Shown here piece after piece: positions 2,551 to 60,835 of a DNA stretch of 64,000 bases (its first letter is position 1; every line of letters begins with the position of its first letter). The notes under the pieces were generated by a model, which saw only the letters and a program-made list of their open reading frames with translations, had not been told where the DNA came from and did not search any database. The DNA is from Mya arenaria (lineage: Eukaryota > Mollusca > Bivalvia > Myida > Myidae): the NCBI RefSeq assembly GCF_026914265.1, contig NC_069124.1, positions 26,196,989 through 26,260,988 of the forward strand, in the 5' to 3' direction. Both the position numbers and the translations under genes were made by a program.

Positions 2551-2658
2551 ATGGAATCAGTTATAGTGTTTAGTGTATTGGTATGGTTCGCCGTTGCCTT
2601 GGAGAAACCGGAAGTGGAGGAATTGTCCGTCCGTATGCCAAATGTCGTCGCACCTAAA
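2551..2658 (+). CDS. PHM: PHM exon 1: start codon, signal peptide, RMP motif
   Basis: Encodes residues 1-36. The hydrophobic stretch VIVFSVLVWFAVAL is followed by VRMPNVVAPK, which matches the start of the PHM catalytic core (RMPGVTPK in rat). The donor is AAA|GTATGT, phase 0. ATG at 2551 is chosen because it directly precedes the hydrophobic segment. No cysteine is present here, whereas vertebrate PHM has one before the RMP motif. Confidence 0.88.
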
Positions 2659-5600
2659 GTATGTCCATCAATGATGTTTAAAATCAATTAATACCGATGA
2701 TTGATTCAGAACTTCTACTGTTAGAAATATATTTTACACTTCATATTTTCTTCATGCAAGTCTTTTAAGCTGCACTCTCACAGATTTACCTTTTTTATAT
2801 ATTTTTTCTTGAAATGAGCTAATTGTTGGGTATATATCTACAACCTAGTGATATATGACTGCTGACAAAAGATCAGATCGCAGATTTTCATATTTCTGTT
2901 CGAAAATTAATGTTTTATGTTTTAAACCGTTACTTACGGTTTAAGAAAAATGCATAACACTTCAAATTTTGAACGTAAATATGAAAATCTGCGATCTAAT
3001 TTTTGTCAGCAGTCTTATATCACTGGTTTCAATGCATTATCGAATAAATTGGCTCGTTCCATGACAAAAAAAAATAAAATAAAAAGTTGTCAAAACGTTC
3101 AGTTTGTTAGAGTGCAGCTTTAAAGTTATTTTCATCGTTTGTGTTTACAATTATTCAGACCTTCTTGAATTAGAACTTGCAATTGAAGGAGAAATATCTG
3201 TTAATAAATCATGTTCTTAACGGTATAATTTTTTTATACTATTAAAATATCCATCGTACTATATTTTGTGTCGAATGTTCAGAACTTTGTTGAAGTTAAC
3301 AATGTTGTTAACGTCACTGTTGTTAACGTCACTGTTGTTAACGTCACTGTTGTTAACGTCACTGTTGTTAACCTTGAAGTCGTTACAGCTATAGAAATAA
3401 TAGATTCCTTTGTGATCTGCTGTATTTCTTACAAAATTATGGCTGTATTTTTTATAGTACAAACCAGAACGTCATAAAATAGTTCCACGTTTAAAAGTTA
3501 ACAATGATGCTGTTAACCGCGTTGTTAACTTTAACAAAGTTCTGAACAATCAGCCCTTAGTCTCATTTTTGAGTGGTTTAAATAGTCGGTAAGTTCATTG
3601 AATGTCGCCAATGTTCTTCATCTTAGGAGGATGCATTGATGTGCCATGCGTCGGAGCTGGAACCTGAAGAGGCATATATAGGTATTTAATTGTCTATAAA
3701 CATTCATTGAAAGAGTTTGTGATATAAGCGGTATAAGTACAGGAAAGCAATTATTTTACCCAGACTTGGGAAATACATACATGTGTAATGAGGATGAATA
3801 CTCATGGGCGCGTAGTTATGCACCAGTCAATTGTAACCACGCCCCCCCCCCAGGTCCGGGGGTATACCGGGGATAGCCGGGGAAATGGGCCGTGTTTTTA
3901 CCTTTCAGGTGGCCCCGCAGTGCCGGGTGAATGCGGTGTTTTGGCTTTGCGCAAAATATAGCGGGGAATGGGCCTTACCTAGCGTCCTTTGGGTGCGGGA
4001 GCATTTGGCGGGGATTTTACCCGGGGTTGGCTGGACCGAAAGTCAAAGTCCCCGCTATTCCCCGGACCTGGGGGGGGGGGGGCGTGGTTACAATTGACTG
4101 GTGCATTAGGCCATAGTCTGAGACTCAAACTCAAAAAGCTAAGATTTAATTTTGTTGTTAAATTGCTGCTTTATGAGCAAAAATGGCGAAACATTATGTA
4201 TGTGTTACAAATTATCAGTTCCACGATAAGGCACACATCCTTTGTCACAAGAAGATTTATCATAAATATTTTTAAACATTTATGAAATTTAGGTTTCTGA
4301 ATCCGAGTGAAACTCAGACCCAAGATGTTAGTGAATACTCCTGGGGTCATGATTACGAACAGTCTCAACTCCAAGTCCAGATTCAGACTCAGAAAAGTAT
4401 TTTGATAAAAGAAGAAAAAAACATATTTATTTCATTTCCTTTTTTAAAAAAGGGTAAATATAAGTTAAATATTCAAATAGCAATGTTTCAGCAAATTTTA
4501 CCATCAATGCTCTGAAAGGTAAATTACAATGATATGAAGTTTTGCAATAATAAGTCTTGGGTCTGAACTCAGACTTGAGACTGTTCGTTATCACTGCCCC
4601 TCGGGTCATGATTACGAACTGTCTCAACTCCAAGTCCAGACTCAGAGTCAGAAAAGCACTGTTATTAAAGCTCAAAGAACCATCTTTATTTAATTTGTGT
4701 TTCAAACATAAATGTGAATAATTGTACAATTGCGAATAGTTCAGCAAATGTCATCTACAAAACTCGACAAGAAAGAATGTTACAGTGAAATGAAGATATG
4801 CAGTTTTACCAATTGAGCCTGAACTGATCAGACACTTAGGACTATTCGGTAATCATGGACCCAGGGCACATTACGAACATGTCAAGTCAGATTCGAGACT
4901 TCGAACTGCAACTTTGTAACTTTCTTTCTAGAAGAGTATTGGTGATAAAAACAGTTGCATTTATTACCAAGGGCGGTTCCAGGATTCGATGTTAGGGGGC
5001 GTAACTTAGGGGCGTAAGCTTTTAACTTGCGCCCAAACCCTGAGAACCGCAATTTATTAGATTTAAAGTGTTGAAGGATATAATGAAATATAATGAAAAT
5101 TTGGACCATTTATGGATCCGCTAATGATTTTCACATGTAAGATTTACACGTATGTACAGGGAGTGGGTTAAAATAATGTCACTTAAAACATTGTTGGCTT
5201 TTCACATGTTTGCTTTTTGGAATCTGAGTCTTGACTCGGGCTTGAGGATGTTCGTGGTTATGGGACCTGAACTGGTATAAGCATATACGAAATCCTTCAT
5301 AAATTTACAAACATAGGTATACACGTTTTGCTTAATTGCGTGTCACAGTTGCGTTCAAGCCTCATGCAAGCCGGGATGTTGCGCATCACATGATGGTGTA
5401 CGGATGTGGACAGCCGGGGTCCAACCAGTCTTCCTGGGCATGCGGAGAAATGGACGACACATCGGATAGGTACTTTAAATATTGTGATCCTAAGGTCTGA
5501 TACGAAGGCGAGGGTAAATAAGCCCAACACAACATGTCTACTTGTTATGAGGGAGTAACCTCCCTTTGGGTACGCCGTTTACGGGATTCAAAGATGATGT

Positions 5601-8600
5601 TACGGGGTACGCAGAAATCCTGAAGTACGCATTCTCTCAAAAAGAAATAAATAACGTTCAATATCATCTTTAATGCATGAAATCGGATAAAAAATGAGGA
5701 AGTGTTCGTTGCCGCAGGATATAGGTAGGGGAGGGAGCTAGCGAGGTTACAACCCTCTGTTTTTGCAAGACAATTGACCGTGGATTTATCTAATTTAACT
5801 GAAATAACATATTTAGAACTTGTCTGGTTACCGCAGTGGTTAGTGCACTCGTTCTCGCCGGATCCGATTCCCGGTCCGGATGCAGGGGAGTTTTGTTTGT
5901 GGTGACCAAGCCGGACATGTTGGTTTCCTCTGGTTACTCCGGTTACCCACCAGACCAGACTCTCACGTAACATCGTGCTAACGAGAGTAATAATGTTGTA
6001 ATAGCTTGTTTCACAGTCGTTGTAAAATAACTAAGTTTATACTAAACTAGTACTTGTATGTCTAGATAGTTTTTCGTTAGTAGTTATAGTATTTATTATA
6101 ACAGTTTAGATAATTTTAAATTAAACTTACAAAATATTATAAAAATACACGATTTTAAACACCCATAGGGATTTAAAGCAAGCACATAATTATTTTGTAC
6201 CATCTATGTGCCTGTCTTCAAGGCAGAAAAGCACATTTTAATTTGCTCATGCGAAAGAAAATGTATGCAATACCATACAATTATAAAACACTTAACTAAA
6301 GATGATATTTGTATTTACAAATAACCATGGTTTTCAATGGCCACTTATTCAAACTCGAAGCGTTATTTTACGTCTATGTAATGCACCAGTCAATTGTAAC
6401 CACGCCCCCCCCCCCGGTCCGGGGGCCGGGGGTATACCGGGGATAGCCGGGGAAATGGGCCGTGTTTTTACTTTTCAGGTGGCCCCGCAGTGCCGGGTGA
6501 ATGCGGTGGTTTTGTCCTCGCTTTAAATATAGCGGGGAATGGACCTTACCTAGGGTCCCTGGGGTGCGGGGGCATTTGGCTGGGATTTTACCATCTGTTC
6601 GTCCCCGTAGGGCGGGGTTTTTAGCCGGGGTTGGCTGGACCGAAAGTCAAAGTCCCCGCTATTCCCCGGACCTGGGGGGGGGGGGGGTGTGGTTACAATT
6701 GACTGGTGCTTAAGTGAACGGATTTTTGGGACCGTTTAAGGTTCTCTATCTTAAAGTTTGTTTTAACCTTAGGTCCGTCTGCGGTGACGGAGAAAGACAG
6801 ATCTTGTGGGCTTGGGCTATGGATGCCGAAGGAAAGGCATTTCCTCCTGGTAAGCTTTAAGTAACATCATAAAAAAATCCTTGAAATAAGTCAAATTATT
6901 AACTTTATAAAGTATCTTTCAACTCGCAACTCAACTTCTTATTGTCTTGACTTGGCATCGGTTTAAGTTTTTTTGATTTTCTGTAAAATGTTCTGATATG
7001 TTCATTAATTTGCGTATACAGTCGAAACCCATTGGCTCGATATCCCAGGGTGCCAAGCGGAAATGCTAACAAAGGGTGAAACAAAAATGATTTCTAAAAT
7101 CCAATTCGAGCCAATGAGAAAATCGACCGAAGCGATATCGAGCCAACGGGTTTCGACTGAACTGTTATTTACATATCACTGTAGAATAATATTGCCCAAC
7201 CTTGCATTCCTTTTATTCCGGTATTGTATCCGTATAGTGTGTCTTTATCAGCAAAACATACTCGTGTGAAATATATTCAAATGTAATCAACGTGCATCCG
7301 TTCCTTATACTTGTCTTCTATCACTTACAGTACTTTGATTTTAAATATTTATTTTATTCATTTATTTTTTAAGTAGATTGATTTTGAGTACTCATATCGA
7401 GGGGTAAATGCGAAAAGGATCTAAGTGACATTAAATAAAGAAGAAGATAGAACCTCTTCGCGTTCACCTCTCGATATAGTTCATTATACACCATACTTTT
7501 TATGAATGTATTACACGTAGTGCAAATCTTTTCGATGGATTCGTACCAAAGCAGTTCCCTACGTTTTTCCTACGTTGTTTTTCAGACGTGGGTTTCCGAG
7601 TGGGCGGGGACACGGGGATCAACCACGTGGTCATTCAGATTCACTACACTCACGCATCCAAACGTAACTATATATGAACCGTTTTAATATATAAAGTATA
7701 GAATATTAAAATTTGTACTCTGTTTTTGAACACCTTATTCATTTTTTGGGTAAATCCCTTTCAGTCATTCAACTTCCCTTGATTTCTAGAAAAACGATTG
7801 ACCCATCTACAATTGGTTCCTGGATCAACGCTTCGAATGAATTGTTGATAACCACGGGACATGATCACATTAATAACTACACAAACCTTCCCCGAAGTTC
7901 ATAACATAACATAACATAACATAACATAACATAACATAACATAACATAACATTTTTTCAGCATAATATGATAGAACATTCATAGCCAAAATAAAAAAAAA
8001 ACAAATGAAACAAACCATTGCAAACCTTCCCCGAAGTTTTTGCTAATCTCGATTTGTTTATTATCAGAGTTGGAAACGCTCATGGACTTTTCGTTGGTTT
8101 TACATTTTTAATACTTCATTTATATTTCGAGACTTGTAAAAGATGGAGGCTGGGCGTGGTCATTAAGATGCACGTCAGTAAAACTAAACTACATTGCTGT
8201 GGAAGTTTTCATTAACTTAATATGTTCTGCTTTCAGCCAATGAAACAGACACATCTGGGGTAACTATTCAATTTACGAAGAACAAGTAAGTCAATTACTA
8301 GGCATACACGAGTCTGTAATTATTTGCATACAAATAGTGTATACAGTCTAAACCTGGTGTCATGATGTTATTCGTAAAATATATACTTAGCTATAAACCC
8401 ATATTAGAAGTCAACATATACTATTTTATCAAATGAGAAGGCAGTATATCTTAAGTTTTTCAATTTCAATAAATTGACAATCATCAGTTATTGCTTTAAA
8501 TCAGGTGAAGCGGTAGGTATGAACAGTGGCTGGCAAAGTTAGCGGGTAGTTTACAATATATTAAGTAGGCTACGTGTGAACACGTTAATACTTTTTTTTA

Positions 8601-11600
8601 AATTAGTATGTAATTATACCCAATAAATGGGATAATTCGACTGCACATACTAATAATCTGTTTCCATTACATAATACTAGAAACCTTTACGATTGAACTC
8701 TTCTATTGCTATATTTGCCAGATTGACATACCAGGCGGGGTACTATGTTCTGTACACATATGGATATATTCCTCCACACACGCAAGGTTAGTACTAAACC
8801 AAGGGATTAGTCCAAGAAAGTCCGGACATAATATGAAAGGTTTAAATAATTGATCAGTTCTGTCTAGGACGAATAACAGACTGGGGAGTTGCGTAGCAGA
8901 GCGATATTCGCTAGGAACCCAGAATCACTCTACTTACCTTAAACATGCTCTCTTACTCCCAAGTGAGATTTACCACAATTAATACAATTGTTCTGATATA
9001 TACATATGTACTAAAAAGTTGAAAAGATGTCGAAAACAATGGTTTTAATGAAGGATACCGAGTTTTATTTGAAAAAAGGTGCAGAAAACACGGTATTTCT
9101 ACCTTATGAGACTATTGAATATTAGCACTCACCAATCATTTTATATTTTTGCAATATCAGCTGTTAAATACACGGTTACAATCTTGTTATCAGTAATTAA
9201 TATTTCCCATGAATGCATTATTTAGTGATTAGTGAAAGGTGTATCACTCAAAATTTATGTTTGTTAAACATGCGTGTATTGATTTTGAATAAGAGTGTCC
9301 CTTTAAATGGACACAGCATAGGTTAACAATTGAAACACAAAAGAAAAAAATAATAATGCATTATTATGTGTAACTCATTTGCCTTAAATGGTTAAAACAA
9401 AAACAAAACATATCATTTGTGTCCAGATAAAAAATATTACCGATGTTTTGGCGCTTTTTAACTGGGGTATTTTTAGCCCCGTAGCTTTTAACTAAAACCT
9501 TATTGTAATGGCTTATATCTTTATTTTTGTACACAAATAATGTATTTTCTTTCATGCTTTACGATGAAATATGGGGTTTTAACAGTGAAATAACAACAGT
9601 GAAAATATCAATTTGATATTTTCACTGCAAAATAAGGAGTGAATATATCAACTTTCAGAACTACTTTTAAATTCCTTTGTTGTTACATGTACTTGCCTTG
9701 ATCAAAACAGAACATTGGACTTCAGTAAATTATGTCAAAAAATGTTAAATAAATATATAATTGGAAATTAACAACTTACCGTTTATTACCGGTTATCCCG
9801 TTTATCAAACATTTTACTGATCTTTGAAGCTGAATGTTCGAACATTTGCTTTCATACCAAACAAATTACAGACAAAAACAACTGTTCGAACATAAATAAA
9901 ATTTTATATCATCGTTCAAATGTATTTTGAACTGTTAACCATTGTAGTACGTAAAATGAGCTTCCTGGAGAATTCACACAACAATTTACAGATAGATCCA
10001 AACTAGCGTGGCATTTACTCTTTTAATATCTGGAAAACAAACATTTTAAAGCGAAACAGACTGGTCTCTGACAGTAAGATGACTGAATATTAACTTACTA
10101 TAAAAACACGCGTACATGCAGCCGTAAACTAAGAAAAATGGTTATAAAATCCAATGAGTATCCACATTTGTTTTGCTAACACATTTGACCTTCCAAATTT
10201 TCATTCTTTAAATAGCGGCGTAGTAATTTGGTTATGATTCATGTCCATCTTAAAATAAAAGTGTTTTCATTATTTTTGGAACATATGTGCACTAATGATA
10301 CTTCATTGTTTACTGTTCATAAAGCTTTGCAATAAAAAACGAGCGAATATTAAGCTATAAGAATGAATAGCAGAGAACTATTTCTCAGCAAACCGAAAGT
10401 AGAAAAGTTGACAGCTATAATTATGCATGAGGGGCGCCCCACGGGTAGCGGCGTAAAGCCCACCCTTTTCAAAAAAGAGGGTAATTCAGAAATAAATAAA
10501 AAAACAAATAAAACTCCGAAAATAAGCATAAAAGAAACAGAAAATTTGTTTATTTCAGTGTAAGATCGTATTTAATTTCACTCGTGATCATAAAAAAACT
10601 ACATTTTCACTCGTGGCTTCGCCACTCGTGAAAATATGTTTTTCTATGGCACTCGTGAAATAAAATACGATCTTACACTGAAATAAACAAATATCCTCTA
10701 TTTATTTCACCCGTGATCATAAAAAAACTACATTTTCACTCGTGGCTTCGCCACTCGTGAAAATATGTTTTTCTATGATACTCGTGAAATAAAATACATA
10801 TAATATAATCTTACACTGAAATAAACAAATATCCTCTATTTATCATTAAAGCTGCTCTCTCACAGATTTACCATTTTTACAACTTTTTTATTTCTTGTCT
10901 TGGAAAGAGCAAATGTTTGCGTAAATATCTGCAAACCAATGAAATAAGATTGGTGACAAAGAAATCAGATCGTAGATTTTCATATTTCCGTTCGAAAATT
11001 AATGTTTTATAGCCTAAACCGTTACTTACGGTTTAAGAAAAATGCATAAAACATCAATTTTTGAACTTAAATACAAATATCTGCGATCTATTTTTTGTCA
11101 GCAGTCTTATTTAACTGTTTTTCATGGATTTCATGAATTATTGAGTATCATATATAATTTCAATTAAATAATAATGATAAAAGGAAAAAACCAATCCGAA
11201 ATAGTTATGGAATAATTGTATTGCTATAAATGACAAACTTCGCTGCACATGTCATACCAAGTGTCATAACATTGCCGATGGATTATTTCTATCCTGCTGT
11301 GAATACGCCGCGGGGTGGGCCATAAAACCATTATCGTACAGTTGAATACACAATTTCTGGGCATCGAATTTCTACAAATTTTACATAAATCTTCAAAAAG
11401 GACCAAAAGATATTTAAAAATTCATTATTTCGAAAAGTTCATTTGAAAGAGAAAATTTTTTTTGCATCGTAATCCGCTGGAAGCTAAGCGATCGGACGTC
11501 TATAATAACTTTAAATAGCAAAACAATTTTTAGCTCCTTCTTATTTCAATGAAACTTTTAATGACCAACAAAACCCTTAAAAAGGACCAAAATGTAAAAA

Positions 11601-14600
11601 TCATACAATTAATACAAAACCATCATCTTCAAGGGCAAGAATTATCCTAACATATATGTAGGAAGTAAGTTGATCTGTTGAAAGACTAAGTCGTGAGAAC
11701 TGTTTAACCATATTTTCCCTATATAACTCTATAGGCACTTTCGCTTCAGCTGATTTCTCCAAAGTTGGCAATGTTCGCAAAAAATGGCTCCTTCCAAGAC
11801 AAAAAATAAAAAAGTTGTCCAAACGTTCAATCTGTGAGAGGGCAGCTTTAATGTAAAAAAAATAATATATTTCTTTTGCATTAAAAGTTATGTGTTTATT
11901 TTGTGCATCATGCGCTATGAATTGTAAACATAGATTGTGCCCCTTTAAGCAATGGCCCGCCTTTGCTTAAAAATATTATTGGGTAAGAAATAAAAGAAGA
12001 AAAAAAACAATGAGTAAGGTTAAACCCCGCCCTAAGAAGGTCGATTTGTTTTTAACAGTTCATTTTACTTGAAGTCCTATTTTACCTGCAGCTTTTTTCT
12101 GTCGCGGTAACGATATGTGAATTTCCCATTTGTTTGATGATTTCAGATTACCATTTGGAAACTGCCTGTGACTTTGTTCAAAACTACAGTATCTTTCCCC
12201 TGGCATACAGAACCCATGCACATTCATTAGGTAAGAAGGTCATGCACAGAACCCACGCACATTCATTAGGTAAGAAGGTCATGCACAGAACCCATGCACA
12301 TTCATTAGGTAAGAAGGTCATGCACAGAACCCATGCACATTCATTAGGTAAGAAGATCATGCACAGAACCCACGCACATTCATTAGGTAAGAAGGTCATG
12401 CACAGAACCCACGCACATTCATTAGGTAAGAAGATCATGCACAGAACCCACGCACATTCATTAGGTAAGAAGATCATGCACAGAACCCACGCAGATTCAT
12501 TAGGTAAGAAGATCATGCACAAAACCCACGCACATTCATTAGGTAAGAAGATCATGCACAGAACCCACGCACATTCATTAGGTAAGAAGATCATGCACAG
12601 AACCCACGCACATTCATTAGGTAAGAAGATCATGCACAGAACCCACGCACATTCATTAGGTAAGAAGGTCATGCACAGAACCCACGCACATTCATTAGGT
12701 AAGAAGGTCATGCACAGAACCCACGCACATTCATTAGGTAAGAAGGTCATGCACAGAACCCACGCACATTCATAAGGTAAGAAGATCATGCACAGAACCC
12801 ACGCACATTCATTAGGTAAGAAGGTCATGCACAGAACCCACGCACATTCATTAGGTAAGAAGGTCATGCACAGAACCCACGCACATTCATTAGGTAAGAA
12901 GGTCATGCACAGAACCCACGCACATTCATTAGGTAAGAAGGTCATGCACAGAACCCACGCACATTCATAAGGTAAGAAGGTCATGCACAGAACCCACGCA
13001 CATTCATTAGGTAAGAAGGTCATGCACAGAACCCACGCACATTCATTAGGTAAGAAGGTCATGCACAGAACCCACGCACATTCATAAGGTAAGAAGGTCA
13101 TGCACAGAACCCACGCACATTCATTAGGTAAGAAGGTCATGCACAGAACCCACGCACATTCATTAGGTAAGAAGGTCATGCACAGAACCCACGCACATTC
13201 ATTAGGTAAGAAGGTCATGCACAGAACCCACGCACATTCATTAGGTAAGAAGATCATGCACAGAACCCACGCACATTCATTAGGTAAGAAGATCATGCAC
13301 AGAACCCACGCACATTCATTAGGTAAGAAGAGATCATGCACAGAACCCACGCAGATTCATTAGGTAAGAAGGTCATGCACAGAACCCACGCACATTCATT
13401 AGGTAAGAAGATCATGCACAGAACCCACGCAGATTTGGTATCATGAGATGGGACAATCTTGTTTTAGATTTTAAGTAATAAGATTGTGCATGTACCTGTT
13501 AAAGTCGTGGCTTTCTTGACTCAGTTATTTCCCTTTTCCTTTAATGACTATCTCTGAAAATACACTGAGTCGACCTGGGAACATAATAAGCGAAGGGCGG
13601 GGGGGGGGGGGGGGGGGGGGTTGGAGGTCTTGGACAAAAAAAAAACGTGCAAATAAATTGTATCCTTGTTGTCAAGACTTTTTCCATCATTGTTTTAATC
13701 ATGTCAAACGTTCACTCATAGGCTGACTCATTTGCAAAAACACATGGTACAGCCTCAACTCCGCTTGAGTTGGTGTATTTCCGCATTCTTAATTTCCGCG
13801 ATCCTAATTTCCGCGTTCCCATATCTCGCTAGGCGTTGTCACATCCGGTTACCAGGTTCGTGACGGACGATGGACGGAGATTGGCCGAATGTCGCCTCAA
13901 CTCCCGCAAGTATGTACAAACTTGTTGTATATCATTTCCTGTTTACCTGCCGTCTTTAAAACGAATGTGTCACTCGCTATTATCAATTCATCTTCCTGAC
14001 ATTAATTTTCGCAAATGTGCCGATTTTTTGTTTAAGACTTATTTTGTTTCTTCATTGTATCTCGCTTTTTGCCTCTTCCGTATATTTCTTTACGGTTTTC
14101 ATATTCCTTTCATGATTTATTTATTTCCTTATATATAATTCTCTTGATTTTTAAAATAATAATAATAATTTCAGTTTTCGTACCTTCCTCCCTTTGTACT
14201 TTACTTTTTCCTTCCTTATTCCCCCACTTCTACCTTCATTCGTCTTTCTCTCCCTTCTACTTCATTTACTCAGCCAATCTTCATTTGTGCCTCTGTTTCA
14301 AGCATTGTTTGTGCGTTCGCTCGTTCTTGTATTCTTTCTTTCTTTCCCAGGTTCAGGAATCACGTGACTTAAAGGGGTTCTGCATGTTCAACTTGAAGGA
14401 AACATTACAATACAAGCAAATCTAAACAAGTTCACACTTCACGGTAAAAGCAGAAAGCATAGTCTTTTATAGGCTTAGAAATACTTTCATATTTTTCTGT
14501 CAAAAAGGTTATGTAGAAATTAAGGCGGCACTCTCACAGATTGAACGTTTTGACAACTTTTTTTTTATTTTTTGTCTTGGAACGAGCCAATTTTTGCGAA

Positions 14601-16472
14601 AATCCATGGAAACCAGTTACATAAGACTGCTGACAAAAAAATAGATCGCAGATATTAATATTCAAGTTCAAAAATTGATGTTTTATGCATTTTTCTTAAA
14701 CCGTTAGTAACGATTTAAGACATAAAGCATTAATTTTCGAACAAAAATATATAAAAATCTACGATCTGATTTTTTGTCATCAATCTTATATCTTTGGTTT
14801 GCAGATATTTACGCAAAAATTTGCGTAATCCAAGACAAAAAATAAAAAAGTTGTAAGAATGGTATATCTGTGATAGTGCAGCTCTAACGCCACTTACTTA
14901 TTTTTTTACCTCAGTTATGACCCGTGGTGACCCATGTGAGAACCCCTTTAAGTCACGTGATTCCTCACCCTGATTCCTTTACACTGCATGATCATCATTT
15001 TATTTGTTTCAGACATTTTATAACGTAACAAATCCGGGCCTGGAGGTAAAGAAGGGCGACATTTTGGTACGAACACTTACATTTCTCTTCGATTGCATCT
15101 AAATTATTCATTAGTCATCAGAACTAAGTCGCTTAGTGGCCATACTCGAAGTGTCTAGCCTAAACAGTCAGAAGAACAATATAAAGATCATCGTATATAA
15201 AAATGCAAATGAAAACTTCCGTTGCGAATTTCACAACTATTTAGTAAATATATAACGCACTTAACGGGATATTTATTGGTTCTTAGCTTTTATGCTCATT
15301 TTATTCCGATATTTTATTTGCCATAAAACTTCCAGGCCGCCAGATGCACAATGAGCAGTGAGAGAGACTTTCCCACAGTTATAGGGTAAGAAATATCTAA
15401 AATCTATGGTGGCCGATATCTGTCATTTTTTCGTGTTTCGAGGAGAGTGGTGTCGAAATATTTTTGGGCGTTTTCGGGTGTATTGCACAGCTCGTTCGGA
15501 ACTCCTCGGCCATGTATCAACGGAAACAACATCGGACACAAACGGACGGTTAACAATGTTAAAATTCTTTACATTTAACTACGCTGCAAGAAGTTCGCGT
15601 AATGATTTTAATCTAGCAGTTAAACCTAAGGCTTTTTGGGGGAAATCTTAATAACTTATGCAATAATCACTTCACGGGCAAACAATTTGAACTTAGTATC
15701 ATTAAAAGTTTACGAACTACTTCAAATGATGAACCAACATACAACCAAGTTTGGTTTCGATAGTAAATTGCCGGGATGCTCCGAATATAGGAGGAGTAAA
15801 CACGTTATCTGCGCCCTGTCAATTGTCAATTTCGTTCGTATTGGCTGCCACACCACTTCACCTATGTCGCTCTTTGTAATGCCCGGACAAGGTGTTATAA
15901 TTGAAACTGTCTTGAATAGTACTAAACAGTCTCTATATGATAGGAACAACACGAAAACCCTGAAAACATGCAACAACGTGGCAACGAAATTTTTGTCCGT
16001 CAACTCTCCCGTAAGCAACAGATGTCAGAATTGGGTCACCATTTAACTATTACTTTAAATGTTTTAAGACAAAAGGGAAGGAAAATAGTGGCACTTTATT
16101 ACCTATCCCGTTAGTTTCCATACAGTTCTGAATGCCACGTAAAAATAGCCATATATATTGTATAACTTCCTTATTTGAAAATGTCAAAAAGGACATCAAG
16201 AGGAATAAACAAAATATAGTTTTCGCTAAAATTAGTCAATTATTAACCTTATTTTTTCCTCGCCCAGACCCAGAAATGAGGACGAGATGTGTAACTTCTA
16301 CATTCTATACTACACGGCCCACCGTGGCCGCCTCCGCGTGCAGTACTGTCTGAGGGACGCTCGAACCTTCCACTGGCGCGACTACATGTCGAACCTCCCG
16401 GCGTCCGCGAGCTCCACTTCCGGTTTGCCGCCATTCACGCGTCACGACCCTCACGCAGCGGTTTCGACCTGA
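2551..16472 (+). CDS. PHM: Peptidylglycine alpha-hydroxylating monooxygenase (PHM), 12 exons
   Basis: Copper- and ascorbate-dependent enzyme of the secretory pathway that hydroxylates C-terminal glycine of peptides, the first step of neuropeptide amidation. Exons by reading: 2551-2658, 3627-3681, 5349-5469, 6773-6849, 7586-7663, 8237-8285, 8722-8786, 12147-12230, 13833-13909, 15013-15066, 15336-15385, 16268-16472. They sum to 1023 bases, all phases fit, 340 residues. Residues 1-17 are a signal peptide (MESVIVFSVLVWFAVAL). CuA ligands: H67/H68 (VAHHMMVYGC) and H140 (IQIHY). CuB ligands: H208/H210 (RTHAHSLG) and M280 (DEMCNFY). Four family disulphides can be paired (C42-C86, C74-C98, C192-C300, C260-C281). 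The protein ends soon after the PHM core, so the lyase (PAL) half is absent, as in insect PHM. Homology is judged from remembered rat PHM motifs. The exon 8 donor is amplified into a minisatellite. Confidence 0.93.
2768..3122. mobile_element. MITE family B, copy 1
   Basis: Termini AAGCTGCACTCTCACAGATT and TTGTTAGAGTGCAGCTTTAA are inverted; internal dyad around AAACCGTTACTTACGGTTTA with flanking ATCAGATCGCAGATTTTCAT and its complement. In PHM intron 2. Confidence 0.8.
3275..3548. mobile_element. Inverted-repeat element with internal 15-bp repeat
   Basis: TGTTCAGAACTTTGTTGAAG at the left is matched by GTTAACTTTAACAAAGTTCT..GAACA at the right. Inside, the 15-mer GTTAACGTCACTGTT is repeated about four to five times (3308-3372). 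The same terminus occurs at 45692. Confidence 0.7.
3627..3681 (+). CDS. PHM: PHM exon 2
   Basis: Acceptor TCTTAG and donor ATAG|GTATTT. Encodes EDALMCHASELEPEEAYI, aligning with the rat segment around YFCMSMRIPVDEEAFVI; C42 is the first half of the conserved C42-C86 pair. Ends in phase 1, matching the next exon. Confidence 0.88.
3818..4108. mobile_element. GC-rich MITE family C, copy 1
   Basis: Terminal inverted repeats TGCACCAGTCAATTGTAACC..GGTTACAATTGACTGGTGCA, each followed inward by a C or G tract of about 10 and GGTCCGGGG-type sequence. Interior is much more GC-rich than the surroundings. TTA flanks both ends as a possible target duplication. Small open frames inside are by-products of the GC content. 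Confidence 0.88.
4290..4935. repeat. Diverged tandem repeat, period about 260 bp, with dyad
   Basis: GATTACGAACAGTCTCAACT (4352), GATTACGAACTGTCTCAACT (4611) and CATTACGAACATGTCAAGTC (4869) recur at about 260 bp, each with ACTCAGA-rich flanks. A further weak echo (GAATCTGAGTCTTGACTCGG) is near 5221. In PHM intron 2. Confidence 0.65.
5349..5469 (+). CDS. PHM: PHM exon 3: CuA histidine pair
   Basis: The acceptor is CACAG at 5344-5348; an upstream AG at 5336 would read into an in-frame TAA, so 5349 is preferred. Residues FKPHASRDVAHHMMVYGC hold the CuA His-His pair (H67, H68) and C74. The end carries WACGEMDDTSD and donor AG|GTACTT in phase 2. Confidence 0.92.
5820..5975 (+). mobile_element. 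tRNA-derived SINE remnant, plus orientation
   Basis: GGTTACCGCAGTGGTTAGTG and CCGATTCCCGGTCCGG resemble A and B boxes. The tail GGTGACCAAGCCGGACATGT, TGGTTACTCCGGTTACCCAC is shared with the minus-oriented copy at about 32715-32900. Confidence 0.65.
6379..6710. mobile_element. GC-rich MITE family C, copy 2
   Basis: Same termini and interior as the copy at 3.8 kb, with long shared stretches (GGTATACCGGGGATAGCCGG, GGCCCCGCAGTGCCGGGTGA) plus an extra 40-bp segment. High identity of the two copies suggests recent movement. Lies just before PHM exon 4. Confidence 0.88.
6773..6849 (+). CDS. PHM: PHM exon 4
   Basis: Acceptor CCTTAG, donor CTG|GTAAGC. Encodes SVCGDGERQILWAWAMDAEG and then KAFPP, aligning with the PHM segment ILYAWARNAPPTRLP. 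C98 pairs with C74. Phase in 2, phase out 1. Confidence 0.9.
7019..7163. mobile_element. Foldback element with GAGCCAA/TTGGCTC arms, copy 1
   Basis: CAGTCGAAACCCATTGGCTC at the left is inverted at the right as GAGCCAACGGGTTTCGACTG. A second copy is at 43817-43978. Confidence 0.75.
7586..7663 (+). CDS. PHM: PHM exon 5: third CuA ligand
   Basis: Acceptor TTTTTCAG, donor AAAC|GTAACT. Encodes DVGFRVGGDTGINHVV then IQIHYTHASK; H140 is the third CuA ligand and Q138 the conserved glutamine before it. The motif GFRVGG is nearly identical to vertebrate PHM. Confidence 0.93.
7901..7950 (+). repeat. (ATAAC)10 microsatellite
   Basis: Ten perfect 5-bp units. CAAACCTTCCCCGAAGTT occurs both just before it (7882) and 140 bp later (8021), so the array sits between two short direct repeats. 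Confidence 0.95.
8237..8786 (+). CDS. PHM: PHM exons 6 and 7
   Basis: Exon 6 (8237-8285) encodes NETDTSGVTIQFTKN and has threonine where vertebrate PHM has C186. Exon 7 (8722-8786) encodes LTYQAGYYVLYTYGYIPPHT, aligning with the rat segment PLIAGMYLMMSVDTVIPAGE. Intron 6 (8286-8721) holds part of a dispersed repeat also seen at 25.3 kb. Confidence 0.88.
8425..8575 (+). repeat. Dispersed repeat family F, copy 1
   Basis: AAATGAGAAGGCAGTATATC and AAATCAGGTGAAGCGGTAGG, GTGGCTGG..AAAGTTAGCGGGTAGTTTAC match the segment at 25.2-25.5 kb. Confidence 0.7.
8940..9307. mobile_element. MITE family D, copy 1
   Basis: Ends ATGCTCTCTTACTCCCAAGT and TTGAATAAGAGTGTCCCTTT with interior GAATATTAGCACTCACCAAT. 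Other copies are at 17.3, 29.6, 33.8, 55.2 and 61.6 kb. Confidence 0.75.
9590..9632. repeat. Short perfect hairpin
   Basis: CAGTGAAAATATCA, then a 3-base centre, then TGATATTTTCACTG. Function unknown; probably a relic of a foldback element in PHM intron 7. Confidence 0.7.
10536..10846. repeat. Two tandem copies of a palindromic 140-bp unit
   Basis: TTCACTCGTGGCTTCGCCAC and the closing ACTCGTGAA occur near 10605 and 10736, each flanked by TGATCATAAAAAAACTACAT and ACTGAAATAAACAAATATCC. CACTCGTGG-CTTCG-CCACTCGTG forms a tight hairpin in each copy. Confidence 0.85.
10849..11851. mobile_element. MITE family B, copy 2, split by an insertion
   Basis: The left part 10849-11130 (AGCTGCTCTCTCACAGATTT, AAACCGTTACTTACGGTTTA) and the right part about 11775-11851 (AATGGCTCCTTCCAAGACAA, CTGTGAGAGGGCAGCTTTAA) belong to one element; about 640 bp of unrelated AT-rich sequence separates them. 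Confidence 0.7.
12147..12230 (+). CDS. PHM: PHM exon 8: CuB HxH site, seed of the 39-bp array
   Basis: Acceptor GATTTCAG; first donor TTAG|GTAAGA at 12230/12231. Encodes DYHLETACDFVQNY and then LAYRTHAHSLG, with the CuB ligands H208 and H210. Joined to exon 9 (GC GTT GTC) it gives HSLG-VVTSGYQVRDG, matching rat HHLGKVVSGYRVRNG with one residue fewer. The last 23 bases of this exon plus the first 16 intron bases are the unit repeated downstream, so which of the donors is used cannot be decided from sequence alone. Confidence 0.9.
   Translation: MTIWKLPVTLFKTTVSFPWHTEPMHIH
12208..13436 (+). repeat. 39-bp minisatellite made from the PHM exon 8/intron 8 junction
   Basis: Thirty-one full units of 39 bp plus a truncated 32nd, starting with CAGAACCCAYGCACATTCAT and continuing TAGGTAAGAAGRTCATGCA. 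The first unit is the real 3' end of PHM exon 8 with its splice donor. Each unit reads RTHAHSLGKK(V/I)MH in the PHM frame and carries donor TTAG|GTAAGA. The TTA-to-TAA change breaks the frame in units 15, 20 and 23 (stops at 12773, 12968, 13085). One unit near 13330 has a 2-base insertion. Variants (GTC/ATC, CAT/CAC, one GCAGATTC) are clustered, suggesting recent unequal exchange. The reverse strand is also open over most of it, as expected of a 3n repeat. Confidence 0.97.
13599..13620 (+). repeat. G homopolymer, 22 bases
   Basis: Uninterrupted G run 160 bp after the 39-bp array in PHM intron 8. Length is likely to vary between alleles or reads. Confidence 0.9.
13833..13909 (+). CDS. PHM: PHM exon 9
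   Basis: Acceptor CTCGCTAG, donor CAA|GTATGT. Encodes VVTSGYQVRDGRWTEIGRMS then PQLPQ; the last element is an exact PHM signature. It starts in phase 1, which is the phase of every 39-bp repeat donor upstream. Confidence 0.93.
14035..14350 (+). repeat. Pyrimidine-rich tract
   Basis: T/C-rich low-complexity sequence (TCCTCCCTTTGTAC, TTCGTCTTTCTCTCCC) in PHM intron 9. The short open frames across it have no protein character. Confidence 0.7.
14523..14888. mobile_element. MITE family B, copy 3
   Basis: Begins GGCGGCACTCTCACAGATTG and ends CTGTGATAGTGCAGCTCTAA, with the same internal GCAGAT/ATCTAC dyad. In PHM intron 9. Confidence 0.78.
15013..15385 (+). CDS. PHM: PHM exons 10 and 11
   Basis: Exon 10 (15013-15066) encodes TFYNVTNPGLEVKKGDIL, aligning with AFYPVGHPVDVSFGDLL. 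Exon 11 (15336-15385) encodes AARCTMSSERDFPTVIG, aligning with AARCVFTGEGRTEATHIG; C260 pairs with C281 of the last exon. Confidence 0.9.
15480..15790. mobile_element. Foldback MITE, family A, copy 2
   Basis: GGAACTCCTCGGCCATGTAT and ACATCGGACACAAACGGACG match copy 1; the right arm (ACCAAGTTTGGTTTCGATAG, GGGATGCTCCGAATA) is a diverged inverted repeat. It lies in PHM intron 11. Confidence 0.6.
16268..16472 (+). CDS. PHM: PHM exon 12: M ligand and stop
   Basis: Acceptor CGCCCAG. Encodes GPRNEDEMCNFYILYY, where M280 is the methionine CuB ligand, then VQYCLRDARTF and a 40-residue tail ending AAVST-stop (TGA 16470-16472). A polyadenylation signal AATAAA lies at 16538-16543. A damaged tandem copy of this exon follows at about 16890-17115. 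Confidence 0.92.
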
Positions 16473-16889: not shown

Positions 16890-17115
16890 TAACCAACTTC
16901 TACATCCTTTTTTAACGCGGTTAACCATGGCCGATATCACGTGCAGTACTGTCTGAGGGACGCGGGCAGGTTCCACAGGCATGACTTCCTGTCCAACATT
17001 CATGCGTCTGCGAGCTCAACTCGCGTTCTGCCGCTACTCACCCATCACGACCCTCACCGGCTGTGGTTTCGACCTTATGTCGATGAGAGATCGTTAAACG
17101 TTGTTAATGCGTGAC
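16890..17115 (+). pseudogene. Decayed duplicate of PHM exon 12
   Basis: From AACTTCTACATCC onward the sequence matches exon 12, with CAGTACTGTCTGAGGGACGC shared exactly, then FHRHDFLSN.HASASST and HHDPH in place of FHWRDYMSNLPASASST and RHDPH. The equivalent of NFYILYYTAHRG reads NFYILF then TAA, and indels follow, so the DEMCN ligand segment is lost. No convincing acceptor precedes it. Best read as a pseudo-exon from tandem duplication, although it extends past the real stop position (WFRPYVDERSLNVVNA). Confidence 0.85.
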
Positions 17116-21184: not shown

Positions 21185-24100
21185 CCGTCGTCATCGTCAT
21201 CGGCCTCATCATCATCATCATCAGCAGCAGCAGCAGCAGCATCATCAGCATCAGCATCATCATCATCATCATCATCAAACCTATGACCTCTTAGAGAAGA
21301 GCGGACAATTGTGCCACTTATGCACTGTTAGGGCTCAAACCCATGACCTCTTGGTCGAGGAGCGGACAGATATGCCCCCTAAGCACTACATGGCATATTG
21401 GGCGAGGGAGGTACGCCTATACTGCTAGCTACCAAAAACCTAACCGCCTTAAAGCGATTGGATACGTATTTATATGCAGATATTGAGAACATGAACATGT
21501 GTTATCGGTGATGGAGGTGTGTCAATGCATCACTAATGAACTTAAGTTAAAAAGTAAGTCCCCCGAAGTAGCTTTATCAGTATGCCGTTCTCAGTAAACG
21601 GTTAAAACCTAAAACTTAGCAAGAGCATTCAACACAAATGCAAAACATTAACCTGCTTAAGATTCCGAGAGCACGGTATGTATATCTAGTTCTCCCATGG
21701 TAAACAATTGAAATATTTAAATGTGAATCACGTGTGAACCACATATTGTGAAACAAAACCAAATATGTATATACATGTATATGTATTCAATAGCTACTTG
21801 CTAAAACTAAAACATCTTAAATAGTGAAGTTGGGGTTTAACTGCATTGTAAATTGGCAAGCAAGTAGATGTTGCAAGTAACAATACTAAGTGCCTTAAAA
21901 TTAACTTCGTTACATTTGAAAATTCGCTTTCTTAAATCTTAGACACTTTAAACGATTTCAAAATAGCTTTGATATAAATCCCTACTTTGAAGTTTCATTC
22001 AGATCCTGCCGGGGGATCGGTTATGAAGAGATGATTAAAGTCTCTGTACAATGTACATTACTTAGTATATCGTAAAACAGTCCATAATCACAACTACGCT
22101 TGATTACTAATGTGAAGTTTCATCAAGATAGTGCGCACTAGAATCGCTATGATTAAAGTCTCTGTACAATGTACATTACTTAGTATATCGTGAAAACAGT
22201 CCATAATCACAACTACGCTTGACTACTAATGTGAAGTTTCATCAAGATAGTGCGCACTAGAATCGCTATATACACTCTGGGACCAATTCATCTGACTCCA
22301 AGGTACACAATGTTGTGAAAAGGGCCATAACTCTGTGGATGTTTTGAGTAAAACATGACGATGATATGTACCTCTTTGCTTGGTACCGAATACCTCTGTG
22401 CAGTTCAATACGAATCGGTACCAAATACTCATGTGAAGTTCAATACGAATCGGAACCGAATATTCCTGTGAAGTTCAATACGAATCGGTACCGAATCGGT
22501 ACCGAATATTCCTGTGAAGTTCAATACGAATCGGTACCGAATACTCCTGTGAAGTTCAATACAAATCGGTACCGAATACTCCTGTGAAGTTCAATACGAA
22601 TCGGTACCGAATACTCCTGTGAAGTTCAATACGAATCGGTACCGAATATTCCTTTGAAGTTCAATACGAATCGGTACCGAATATTCCTTTGAAGTTCAAT
22701 ACGAATCGGTACCGAATATTCCTGTGAAGTTCAATCGAATCGGTACCGAATACTCCTGTGAAGTTCAATACGAATCGGTACCGAATACTCCTGTGAAGTT
22801 CAATACGAATCGGTACCGAATACTCCTGTGAAGTTCAATACGAATCGGTACCGAATACTCCTGTGAAGTTCAATACGAATCGGTACCGAATACTCCTGTG
22901 AAGTTCAATACGAATCGGTACCGAATATTCCTTTGAAGTTCAATACGAATCGGTACCGAATATTCCTTTGAAGTTCAATACGAATCGGTACCGAATACTT
23001 CTGTGAAGTTCAATACGAATCGGTACCGAATAATTCTGTGAAGTTCAAAACGAATCGGTACCGAATACTCTTGTAAAATTCAATACAAATCGGTACCAAA
23101 TACTCCTGTGAAGTTCAATACGAATCGGTACCGAATACTCCTGCAGAGTTCAATACGAATCGGTACCGAATATTCATGTGAAGTTCAATATGAATCGGTA
23201 CCGAATACTCTTGTAAAATTCAATACGAATCGGTACCGAATACTCCTGCAGAGTTCAATACCAATCGGTACCGAATACTACTGCAGAGTTCAATACGAAT
23301 CGGAACCGAATATTCCTGTGAATTTCAATACGAATCGGTACCGAATATTCCTGTGAAGTTCAATATGAATCGGTACCGAATATTCCTGCAGAGTTCAATA
23401 CGAATCGGTACCGAATATTCCTGTGAAGTTCAATACGAATCGGTACCGAATACTCCTGCAGAGTTCAATACGAATCGGAACCGAATATTCCTGTGAAGTT
23501 CAATACGAATCGGTACCGAATATTCCTGTGAAGTTCAATATGAATCGGTACCGAATATTCCTGCAGAGTTCAATACGAATCGGTACCGAATATTCCTGTG
23601 AAGTTCAATATGAATCGGTACCGAATACTCTTGTAAAATTCAATACGAATCGGTACCGAATACTCCTGTGAAGTTCAATACGAATCGGTACCGAATACTA
23701 CTTTGAAGTTCAATACGAATCGGTACCAAATACTCCTGTGAAGTTCAAAACGAATCGGTACCGAATACTACTGTGAAGTTCAATACGAATCGGTACCGAA
23801 TACTCATGTAAAGATCAATACGAATCGGTACCGAGTACTCTTGAGAGGTCCAATACGAATCTTGCTAGGAAATTCTGAGATGAAGCACGCTCAAGAGTGT
23901 ACACACAGACGGACATACGAACAAACTGGGGCCAAAATGCCCAGGGTTCAACCCGTACAACTCAGTTGTGCGGTGGTATAAAAAGTAAATTTGGCCTCCG
24001 TTACAAGTAATCATCGTCGGTTTACAAGACATTTTTGAACAAGTGGTTTATGCATCACGATAATCTAAACATGATTCAAGAAGCTATAACAGATTGTGCA

Positions 24101-36100: not shown

Positions 36101-39100
36101 GTGCGCCCGGGAGCTAAAGGGATGGCTTCCTGGAATGTCGCCAATTATTGTGGTCAGATTCTTAGGTAAGGCTTAAACAATGGACATGTATACATGTGTA
36201 TGTAAAGCAAATTACAGTTCTATCATATGTTTAGGCAACAAATATCAATAAGAAAGATGTTAATGTTATAGGCTTAAATAAGACACGTATGCATATCAAA
36301 ATATACTTAGTTAGACTTCAATATTATTGTTTATCTTTATGTTTCTTAACACAAAAAAACCCATCCGACATGGTAAACTTTTGCTCATGACACGAACTGC
36401 GGTAATTTTATACTATAAAACCAAGGCGTAATAAAAGTTCAGTCTGCTAATAGTATAATAGTGCCTAAAGGGTTTATACATTCTACAAATGTAACAGGCG
36501 GTGAAGTATGTTTGGATTTTGGAATAACAATGTAAAACATATTTAAATCACATGGAACAGATGTGCAGCATATCAAATTTTAATTATTCATTGAGATACT
36601 TCCCCGGAGTTATGGAAACTGTTTCAGCACAGCCGCGGACCCGTTTGGAATTTACCGGAAGGAAATAACTAAATAAATAGTCATGTTTTAGGAACGTCTC
36701 CACGTCCTCACACATAAAAACAACCTAAATTTTGTATATTAATTTTGTAGCGTATAATCATTTTCTTGGAAGGATTTCCGCATTGACAAGGAGCTAAACA
36801 TAACTCCGGTAGCCCTCGTTTGTAATCAGCCTAGGATTAAAAAATATATTATTTTTATGTATATTTCAGGGACTTCCCCGCGGTCCTCACATCTGCATCT
36901 CCTACTACGCAGCCTCAGTTTGCAGATCTGTGACGTAGTGGGATTTCCCCGAAAGGATATCCCCACAGAGTTCAAGGAACTCGTCGCCTTTTTCCACACT
37001 CTGCTGAAGGTAAATACTGCTATTTATTTGTCAGGAATGGTCTGAATTATTTATTTGTTAGTATGACAAAATATTAATTAAACTTCACTTCTTGGTTTTA
37101 TATACGATTGTATCAAAGATGCACGATAAAAAAAAGCTACGTGAAACAGTGCCTTACAATGAAAGAAGTCATTTAACGCTCATTGTCAATTTATATAAGT
37201 GTATAATAAATTTATGTACTTAGAAGAAGTATAACCATATTTGCTATTGTTTTCAATTATAGATGTGTAATTTATCTTATTATTTGTTATTTGTTAGAAT
37301 GCGATTGAAGTGGTGTACAATGTTAGCAATAAAGCATACTTTTTGTACTATAATTGTACGTTCCGTAAAATGACAAAAGATACATGGTACATGGGCACAA
37401 TTTAGGTCTACACTTGACAGATGCCTAAGGCCGAACAAAAAAAAAAGGTTTGTTTAGGTTAACCTTTCCCAAAATTTTTAGGTAGGGTAGGTAGGGATTT
37501 TTTTTTTCAAAATCTGTCGTAAATTCAGAGTGTTTTCTTGCACATGGCAGTCTTTCCTACATTACTGTCATTGCCTGACTTTGTTTTATCATATAAACAA
37601 TAATTCTGATCGTCCAATTCGCATTTATCCGCCCTAAACTCTCTATTCGCTAACGAATATTTTTTTTGCTCAGAAACGGGAAAAAATAGTTAGGGTCGGC
37701 GCATTTTTATAGGTAGGGTCGAGTTAACCGAAACAGACATATTTGTTTTTAGGCCTAACAGAAACGTATTAATTTTAATGTAATATTATGTTTGACTCAC
37801 TTGACTTTAATAATGAAAACAACAACAAAAATCAACATTTGATTGGCGTACTGATAAAAAATGTTAGAATTTATAAATGGGTGTTTCAATTAATATATAG
37901 CTATATACGTGGCCGCAAAATTCTCGGTTAAAAAGCGCCATAATATCATGGATGTTTTATCAATCAAGTCAAATAAGTTAAACATAACAATTCATTTAAA
38001 TAAAAATAAAATGTTGCATCTATGAAGTGTATACCTATATTGTGTTTCTTTAATAAAATGCAAACAGTGTCATATACATGAAATGCAATGTTGCTCCTTA
38101 TTTCAGAGAGCCTCCGAGCAGCCCCGCCCCATAGTGCTGTTCCTTGACTCCGTGGACCAACTGGCGTCTTCCGGTGAGCCTTACACGTTCCATTGGCTCC
38201 CTCGTCAGCTTCCGCCAAACGTCAAGATCGTTCTATCCCTCGTGCCATCCGTAAACAACTTGTTGTCGCGGTTCAGGGCCCATATGGACACTTTCAAATT
38301 TACGGCGGAGCCCATTCCGCCGTTAGGGGATACCATGTGTTTGGACATAGTCCGCGCACGCCTGGATGACAATGGGAGGACGATCTCAAAAGACCAGAGT
38401 GGAGTTATGAAGGCGGCCTTTTCGCGCTGCGGTCTCCCGCTTTACACTAGAGTCATGTTAGATGAAATTCAGACTTGGAAATCATATACACATGTCTCGC
38501 TGGAGAAGGTTTCTGCAACGCTAAAGGAGGCATTAAACTTCTTCTTCCGGCGTTTGGAGACGCAACATGGCAGCACGCTTGTCAGACATGCTCTTTCGTA
38601 TATCACCGCAAGTCGAGAGGGCGTCTCCGAAATGGAGCTCCTTGATTTGCTTTCGTTGGACGACGAAGTCCTTAATTCTATCTTTCTGTTCTGGCTGCCA
38701 CCCGTCCGCCGCCTGCCGCCATTCCTGTGGACGCGGCTGCGCATTGACCTAGATCAATTCTTGGTGGAGCGTGACGCTGGAAATACGGCGGTCTTCACAT
38801 GGTATCACCGGATGTTCAAAGAGGCGGCCATGGAACGGTACCTCGCGGATAACGAAACTCGTGTGAACATACATTCCAGTTTAGCGGACTACTTTGCGGG
38901 AAATTGGTTTCGTAAAAAGAAACCGTTCAAGTTTAGCTCATTTCTCATGTCTCGTTTGTCGTTGAAGTCAGGTGACGGCGAAGAAGAACGTCATGTTTCC
39001 GAACAGCCGCTGATGTTCAAGCAAAACAGGAAGTTGTCCCAGTTTAACAAACGTAAGCTCACGGAACTACCGTATCATCAATTGAAAAGCGCGCGAACGG

Positions 39101-59400: not shown

Positions 59401-60835
59401 ATCGATACTAGAGCTGGAAATGCTGATTCTGTGCGTTTTTTAAATTAGATTCTAGAATGTTCTGAAGTCTAATTTCCACGTATTTTTATGAAGTATATGG
59501 TGTAAAAGAGAGACGGCCCTACTAGCTAGCTGTAATGAAATTACTCATTTCGAAAGAATTTGTATCCTTTAAAAGTTAAAAAAAAACAACTTCATACAGC
59601 TAAAATTATAGTATCGATCTTTATCATCAAACCAATGCAGAGCGTTAAATTGTACTGTGATAATTAAAATATATTATAAACTTCACTCAGTTGGGACTTC
59701 TGTATAGTTATTGTCGGAAATGTTTCGATTCTAATTTTGAGATACTCTCTAAATTCCGTGGCAAGTTAAAAACCACAACACCATTTATATCATACATTTA
59801 GTTGATGGTATAGCTTTGGTCAAATTTTTTTTTGTCATACTATTGACTTATTTTTCCTTATTCCAGGTTGTTCGTACCAACTCTCCGTGCCGGGGGAGTA
59901 CACAGCGCTGTCGGGAGACCTCCTTATCTCCTATGGCATACCGGAAGGGAATCAGCTCCCTAGCGCCTTCGTCCGCCTCTATCTGTTGGGAGAGACGGCC
60001 AACGTCGAGATAACCAACCTCCAAATCGGCCAGGGGTACCCGCGCGGAGTTCTCAAGATCACGTGCGGGATCATCGAGGTGGCGGGAAAATATGAGTTCC
60101 GAATGTACATGCACGAGGAAAGCCGCGTGCTAGTGCGCGCGCTCGTCGTTGTCCGCTGGCCGGAAGTGGCTATTCGGCTGCCCCTCACCCATGTTGCTCA
60201 AAGCACTTCCGTCCGTGTTCATATATCTTCAGATGCCGTGTGCAATCCACTGTTAAAGAAGTTTAGTTTTTCTTTAGAACTGGAATTCGCTAAAAACAGT
60301 TCTTCCATTTCCGTTTCCGGAAAAGATCACGTGACCTACTCTCAGTCATTTACAGAAGTTGCTAAAGACGATAACTTAATAGATTTCTCATGTAATTTAT
60401 TCGAACAAATTGGAATATACCGTGTTTCATTAACATCTTCATACAGTGCAATATCAGTGGTAGCTAGGAGTAACTCCATGCTGGCAACTTCAAACCCGAA
60501 GTTTTTCATCAGAATATACAAAGACACTATTTTCCCGTGCAGCACGGGCAGTGATTTAACCATAGATTACGGACTCGGGCAGTGTCCAAGCGCACCCGGA
60601 AGTAACCGGCTTCGCGTCTACAAACTTGTGCGTACGGCCGCCTCCATGGCCTCGCCAATCAACAAGATGTACATCCGGGAGATAATTTTGAACGCTGATA
60701 GCACGCGGCTCAATGAGCGATGTAGTGGCTACCATACCGAGGCGGCCGGATATTGTTTCCAACTGGTGACGCTCATGGGTGGAGGTGTCGTCGTCAACCA
60801 AACGGAAGTGTGCAAGTCCGCACACCCAGATTCAG
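53038..60835 (+). CDS. THSD1-like protein, N-terminal part (continues past the window)
   Basis: Exon 1 (53038-53098) encodes a signal peptide, MCRLHFWKQLTILWMFPILG, donor GGAG|GTAAGT in phase 1. Exon 2 (59867 to about 60835) joins in phase and begins GCSYQLSVPGEYTALSGDLL. The pattern SYQLSVPGEYTALS, GVLKITCGIIEVAGKYEFRM, VVVRWPEVAIRLPLTHVA and SSDAVCNPL parallels the extracellular N-terminus of vertebrate THSD1 (EYLLLREPGHVALS, GTLKFECFYFKEAGDYWF, LKVEWPVFHVDLN, TSQPLCPFP). The later IREIILNADSTRLNERCSGY parallels its second cysteine segment. No TSP1 domain or membrane segment is present before 64000, so further exons must follow. Assignment rests on remembered family pattern; similarity is modest. 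Confidence 0.7.
53520..53541 (+). repeat. (GT)10 microsatellite
   Basis: GTGTGTGTGTGTGTGTGTGT followed by a T run. Confidence 0.9.
53930..54215. mobile_element. MITE with GTCGTGTCGACTT termini
   Basis: AGTGTCGTGTCGACTTATTT and TTATGTCGACTTGACGA at the left; TCTCGTCGACATAAAATTAG and AGTCGACACGACTTTATG at the right as inverted repeat. Confidence 0.8.
55193..55564. mobile_element. MITE family D, copy 5
   Basis: AAGTAACACTCTTATTCAAA to GGGAGTAAGAGTGCATCTTT; in the THSD1-like intron. Confidence 0.8.
56293..56458 (+). repeat. (GAT)n array, about 55 triplets
   Basis: Nearly pure GAT with a short GACGACGAC interruption near 56360. Spurious poly-Met and poly-Ile frames cross it. Confidence 0.97.
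57878..58345 (+). repeat. 90-bp tandem repeat, about five copies
   Basis: GTGCCCTGGACGAACGACTT recurs at 57880, 57970, 58060, 58150 and 58240 with GTGTACATTCCATTTCATTA and GTGTCAGCCATCTGTTTTCC in each; a diverged sixth copy follows. The period is 30 codons and both strands stay open for about 90 residues. Confidence 0.95.
59867..60835 (+). CDS. THSD1-like exon 2
   Basis: Acceptor TTATTCCAG. Open for 322 codons up to ACACCCAGATTCAG followed by GTTTTT, a weak donor. Beyond 60836 the frame stays open to TAG at 60970-60972 but composition turns AT-rich and Lys/Phe/Asn-rich, like intron. GC content and codon use are coding-like up to about 60835. Confidence 0.78.

Follow-up and report, generated by a model that had tools for sequence, protein, structure and literature searches.

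A minisatellite across an exon-intron boundary of a Mya arenaria PHM-like gene repeats the exon's splice donor in 31 full units

Introduction

Which 5′ splice site does a gene use when a minisatellite has repeated the end of one of its exons together with the donor? The question is raised by a PHM-like gene of the soft-shell clam Mya arenaria, within a stretch of 64,000 nucleotides analyzed here as a whole (the window; coordinates are positions in it, and the PHM gene and its array lie on the plus strand). In this gene 31 almost identical 5′ splice sites stand before a single 3′ splice site, a natural experiment in which junction counts would reveal the rules of cross-exon and cross-intron pairing in a non-vertebrate animal, with the T/A difference at donor position −3 in three copies providing built-in controls for donor choice. 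The array also shows the end of a coding exon participating in minisatellite turnover.

Results and Discussion

The host gene extends from 2551 to 16469 with 12 coding exons and is an exact match to the 340-aa NCBI Mya arenaria protein P0001, named peptidylglycine alpha-hydroxylating monooxygenase-like; the exon mapping reproduces P0001 residue for residue with the exception of P147, whose codon is split by a junction. The product carries both Cu2_monooxygen domains (Pfam PF01082, N-terminal, E = 2.3e-25; PF03712, C-terminal, E = 1.8e-35) and matches the rat PHM sequence with an E value of 1.3e-64, compared to 1.4e-16 for dopamine beta-hydroxylase (DBH). Its structure model is confident (mean pLDDT, 91.4), and in a Foldseek search with this model PHM/PAM entries took ranks 1 to 29 (best E = 2.7e-36) and DBH ranks 30 and 31; the fold is that of PHM, not DBH. 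Residues H67, H68, H140, H208, H210, and M280, which we take to be the copper ligands (five His and one Met) from roles established for rat PHM, are invariant in all 31 aligned PHM sequences, and these six predicted ligand positions align with those of the rat enzyme. Overall, the clam gene looks intact. Exon 8 (12147 to 12230, 84 nt with its first donor) follows an intron of 3360 nt, and exon 9 (13833 to 13909) is the acceptor exon common to all of the donors described below; both were placed by exact exon mapping. Downstream of the gene, at 16895 to 17078, lies a diverged second version of its final exon (184 bases, 75.5% identity), perhaps the remnant of a duplication, perhaps an alternative terminal exon that lacks the segment with the Met ligand.

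The minisatellite begins inside exon 8 and spans 12207 to 13435 (Tandem Repeats Finder: period 39, 31.5 copies, 97% matches), a length of 1.23 kb. By its GTAAGA sites the array resolves into 31 full units and an 18-base partial one; copy 29 measures 41 bp, and the other 30 full units 39 bp each. Unit 1 joins the final 24 bases of exon 8, which encode R206 T207 H208 A209 H210 S211 L212 G213 (NCBI clam model numbering) with the CuM-type ligands H208 and H210 among them, to the initial 15 bases of intron 8, and this partly exonic unit is identical to unit 3. The two extra bases of copy 29 lie in its intronic part (13323 to 13339) and put copies 30 and 31 out of frame. A search of the 64-kb window for the 39-mer with at most three mismatches returned 30 matches, all within the array, leaving the unit with the 2-base insertion unmatched, and the same search on 100 shuffles returned none. 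The array is real. A preliminary description had placed 31 full copies of 39 bp at 12208 to 13436: the copy count and unit length hold, and the boundaries move by one base. Its division of the unit into 23 exonic and 16 intronic bases was a choice of phase, replaced by 24 + 15 because the repeat begins at 12207, and its numbering of exon 8, H208, and H210 is right for the NCBI clam model, in which exon 8 ends at 12230 and exon 9 starts at 13833. In intron 7, ten bases at 12033 to 12042 (TAAGAAGGTC) match the unit's intronic part exactly, with 0.026 such matches expected by chance. A 22-base pattern from the unit had no match in a set of viral contigs, an uninformative collection for its occurrence outside the clam.

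Five of the 39 unit columns vary, at −21 (1 copy), −14 (3 copies), −10 (2 copies), −3 (3 copies), and +9 (12 copies), a count that leaves out the insertion in copy 29, and the resulting 9 unit types follow each other in irregular order. Adjacent units are more similar than units in shuffled order (mean differences, 0.80 versus 1.04; P = 0.01, 5000 shuffles), the usual trace of local turnover by duplication or conversion. GTAAGA is present in all 31 full units. It had also been reported that every copy keeps TTAG|GTAAGA; the intronic half of that motif is indeed constant, and the exonic half is TTAG in 28 units and TAAG in copies 15, 20, and 23. The chance that five variable columns of 39 all miss the six GTAAGA columns is 0.41, and the constancy of the motif is no more than a homogenized array yields. 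We rejected selection on the donors on this value; the 9-base donor (−3 to +6) itself varies at −3.

Donor positions were set from the exon mapping and the unit alignment. The first donor (12231 to 12236) has a predicted U1 duplex energy of −9.4 kcal/mol, the most favorable among the 11 donors of the gene (−1.6 to −8.9 at the others), and matches the consensus at 7 of 9 positions, compared to 8 of 9 for the donor of exon 6. Energies in later units equal that of copy 1 or are slightly better (−9.5 in copy 15). Since the donors are so alike, strength cannot decide among them, and position must. At the far end of intron 8, a 15-bp repeat of 2.9 copies (13777 to 13819; Tandem Repeats Finder) precedes the acceptor AG at 13831 to 13832 (sequence scan) and carries pyrimidines along with branch-point-like CTAAT and TTAAT, putative branch points of this intron; together with the 39-bp array it places tandem splicing-like signals at both intron ends. 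AG dinucleotides of the array, considered as acceptors or recursive splice sites, are weak candidates, with 55% pyrimidines upstream versus 75% at the true acceptor. Masking of later donors by RNA structure is likewise unsupported: RNA from the first seven units has unusually little predicted structure (z = +4.4), folding worse than 200 of 200 shuffles, a weak test because the shuffles destroy the periodicity of the array. For what this is worth, the later donors do not appear to be hidden by structure, which counts against use of donor 1 only.

The donors differ in what they would produce. When exon 8 was joined to exon 9 from each donor in turn, the frame stayed open from donors 1 to 14 and a stop appeared in the product of donors 15 to 31, each unit of 39 bp amounting to 13 codons. 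Between donor 1 and donor 31, the length of exon 8 would rise from 84 to 1256 nt while that of intron 8 would fall from 1602 to 430 nt; donors 2 to 14 (12270 to 12743) extend the exon by 39 to 507 nt, or 13 aa per unit. Copy 15 supplies the first in-frame stop, a TAA (12773 to 12775) produced by the T-to-A change at −3 that also alters the donor; this change recurs in copies 20 (12968 to 12970) and 23 (13085 to 13087), and all 17 donors from 15 to 31 (12777 to 13408) give a premature stop. The idea of 31 equivalent donors before one acceptor at 13833 thus survives as 31 near-identical donors before one acceptor, and loses its equivalence to exon lengths of 84 to 1256 nt and a frame open for donors 1 to 14 only.

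An open unit is no proof of coding, since a unit of 13 codons would be open by chance with a probability of 0.26. In translations of the read-through peptide, four of the five variable columns change a residue (K, D, stop, I) and one is silent; the H210 codon is lost in copies 8 and 30, and R206 is changed in copy 9. Such stops and lost or altered ligand-region codons indicate that read-through coding is not maintained, and we ruled out constraint on it from the stops, the frameshift, and the altered ligand codons. Added residues would enter at residue 213, which in the structure model ends the hairpin turn between strands 200 to 209 and 213 to 222, and an alignment of 30 homologues has no insertion at this site. 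A protein search with the read-through peptide gave two matches among those listed from 7991 scored candidates, both of them the clam models and covering 14% of the query, and a short version of the repeat peptide gave none among 870 candidates. A match of the array's open reading frame to TPX2_importin (Pfam E = 2.8e-4; 21.7 bits, below the cut-off of 29.5) was dismissed as an artefact of the repeats.

Both NCBI Mya models, P0001 and the shorter P0002, which is without several other exons, have the junction of donor 1 (...THAHSLGVVTSGY...), though this junction may rest on homology instead of reads. A human study (PMC9225289) reports that five of five minigene constructs with two identical strong donors, exon definition, and flanking introns of 365 nt used the upstream donor exclusively. 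It further describes near-equal competing donors as shifting toward the upstream one with long flanking introns and toward the downstream one with short introns, a preference for the downstream donor in ~60% of events before matching for strength, and exon skipping in larger constructs when both donors were weakened (PMC9225289). With 84 nt in exon 8, 3360 nt upstream, and 430 to 1602 nt downstream, exon definition and use of donor 1 would be expected. From the protein models and this human analogy, donor 1 is probably the donor in use, perhaps with a slight leak to early in-frame donors. Against this stand introns of 430 to 1602 nt that are not very long, splicing rules that in a clam may not be the human ones, and, as an analogy in the opposite direction, the human IFI6 gene, in which two downstream repeats are described as donors (PMC4526556).

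We favor, with a probability of about 70%, a minisatellite that has grown over the exon edge, with donor 1 chosen by exon definition and the array tolerated rather than selected. A 39-bp tandem duplication would by chance have spanned the edge of exon 8 and intron 8 and then expanded, as suggested by the composition of the unit, its high homogeneity, and the identity of the exonic copy with copy 3. Each copy would have multiplied a good donor, and recognition across the short 84-nt exon would pair its acceptor with the nearest one, leaving donor 1 in use and the remaining 30 to be removed with the intron. Slips to donors 2 to 14, presumably rare, would stay in frame because the unit is open and 13 codons long, and would put 13-residue inserts into the hairpin beside the copper ligands; equally rare slips to donors 15 to 31 would give stop-bearing mRNA. 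If exon definition selects donor 1 in this way, the array is most likely tolerated and not selected.

Later donors could instead be in measurable use, from donor 1 to about 6 (or 14), giving a ladder of isoforms with 0, 1, 2, or more extra KKVMHRTHAHSLG inserts. The near identity of the donors throughout the array speaks for such use, as do the 14 of 31 that leave the frame open, the three mRNAs that IFI6 obtains from two downstream repeats (PMC4526556), and the place of residue 213 where a hairpin turn closes in a confident model, where extra length could be tolerated. We nevertheless hold it to be doubtful, given that openness of the unit is cheap by chance, that copies 15, 20, and 23 bring stops and copies 8, 30, and 9 damage the H210 or R206 codons, that none of 30 homologues carries an insert there, and that P0001 and P0002 both use donor 1. 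Its most elaborate form, which we consider very unlikely, is a length-graded splicing device: donors 1 to 14 would yield PHM isoforms with 0 to 13 extra KKVMHRTHAHSLG inserts, each adding a His-x-His to the hairpin by the copper site, the stop of copy 15 would cap the ladder, and copy number would vary between clams, so that amidation capacity would be tuned by a minisatellite.

The array might also lower PHM output, if donors near the acceptor often win and produce long stop-bearing exons subject to mRNA decay, with copy number tuning expression. Stop-bearing products would indeed come from 17 of the 31 donors, and in human many events are described in which intron-centered proximity favors the donor further downstream (PMC9225289). 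That study also describes a preference for small exons, whereas this explanation needs exons of 630 to 1256 nt, and an essential-looking gene would be expected to face strong selection to shed such an array; we regard it as quite unlikely. An assembly error, in the number of copies or in the existence of the array, is highly improbable, even if tandem arrays are prone to such errors. The Mya reference is described as built from PacBio reads with FALCON-Unzip, Hi-C, and 10x polishing and annotated with RNA-seq of six tissues (PMC10663159); 1.23 kb would be short relative to such long reads, and 9 unit types in an irregular pattern are unlike a collapsed or looped consensus.

The human IFI6 minisatellite has a unit of 12 bp, shorter than the clam's 39 bp, and both lengths are multiples of three. 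IFI6 (6-16, G1P3) is a human interferon gene in which a minisatellite provides several donor sites (Turri, Cuin and Porter 1995, NAR 23:1854, via PMC4526556 and PMC3618361), two downstream repeat units serving as donors to give three mRNAs (PMC4526556); the 1995 work is also cited, in a paper on yeast minisatellites, for interference of such repeats with splicing (PMC3618361). As far as these accounts describe it, both arrays lie at an exon end and have a donor in each repeat unit. In the clam, the tandem units start in the exon, each repeats the donor of the host exon in full, and the unit is a multiple of three with an open frame, open through donor 14 only. Use of later donors is seen in IFI6 mRNAs and would probably be rare in the clam. 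The clam unit, moreover, includes 24 exonic bases with codons for copper ligands in the core of an enzyme, and stops set in at copy 15. The preliminary description had called the array unlike ordinary intronic satellites, which is fair, yet IFI6 is a precedent (PMC4526556, PMC3618361).

Related arrangements are known elsewhere. In human genes of segmental duplications, variable minisatellites with an average unit of 30 bp at exon-intron boundaries change exon or intron length, and 66% of the intron modifications also have an alternative transcript that retains the repeat (PMC2812944); these repeats average about four copies, and the available part of that report describes no working donor multiplied 31-fold. 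Introns gained when AGGT-bearing segments are duplicated in tandem resemble the clam case in having AG|GT in the units, the copies being able to act as donor and perhaps as acceptor (PMC4974935), whereas the clam intron pre-exists and the array AGs are without a good pyrimidine tract (55% versus 75%). VNTR6-1 in intron 6 of TERT has a unit of similar length (38 bp), is intronic, and is linked with splicing, and in the part of the source available is not described as bearing the exon's own donor (PMC11830802). None of the titles listed in a literature search on bivalve PHM splice variants pointed to such an array, and the main text of the Mya genome paper contains neither "minisatellite" nor "splice." Since IFI6 and human exon-edge repeats are known, the clam array is a further case of a known arrangement; it has more copies than those human cases as described and is sited at the copper-site codons of an enzyme. 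We see in it a second, unusual instance of what IFI6 shows and no new kind of element.

Tandem arrays are plentiful around the gene, with about ten loci of period at least 10 in the 64-kb window (Tandem Repeats Finder), so such arrays are common here. By a rough estimate, the chance that one of 8 arrays straddles a donor of the PHM gene is ~4%, and comparable exon-edge arrays should be expected somewhere in a genome of 1.2 Gb. Elsewhere in the window, a 35-bp minisatellite of 42 copies lies downstream of the PHM gene (22382 to 23861), a 19-bp minisatellite of 40.8 copies occupies 62836 to 63585, and a 90-bp repeat of 4.3 copies (57875 to 58264) has a 30-codon unit that is open for 105 aa on the plus strand and 111 aa on the minus strand. 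An open frame of 388 aa at 59806 to 60972 has a THSD1_N match slightly below the Pfam cut-off (26.0 versus 27), and a long exon at 38026 to 41328 belongs to an NWD1-like NACHT/WD40 gene (HTH_NWD1, PF25469, E = 6.9e-15; WD40 matches under the cut-offs).
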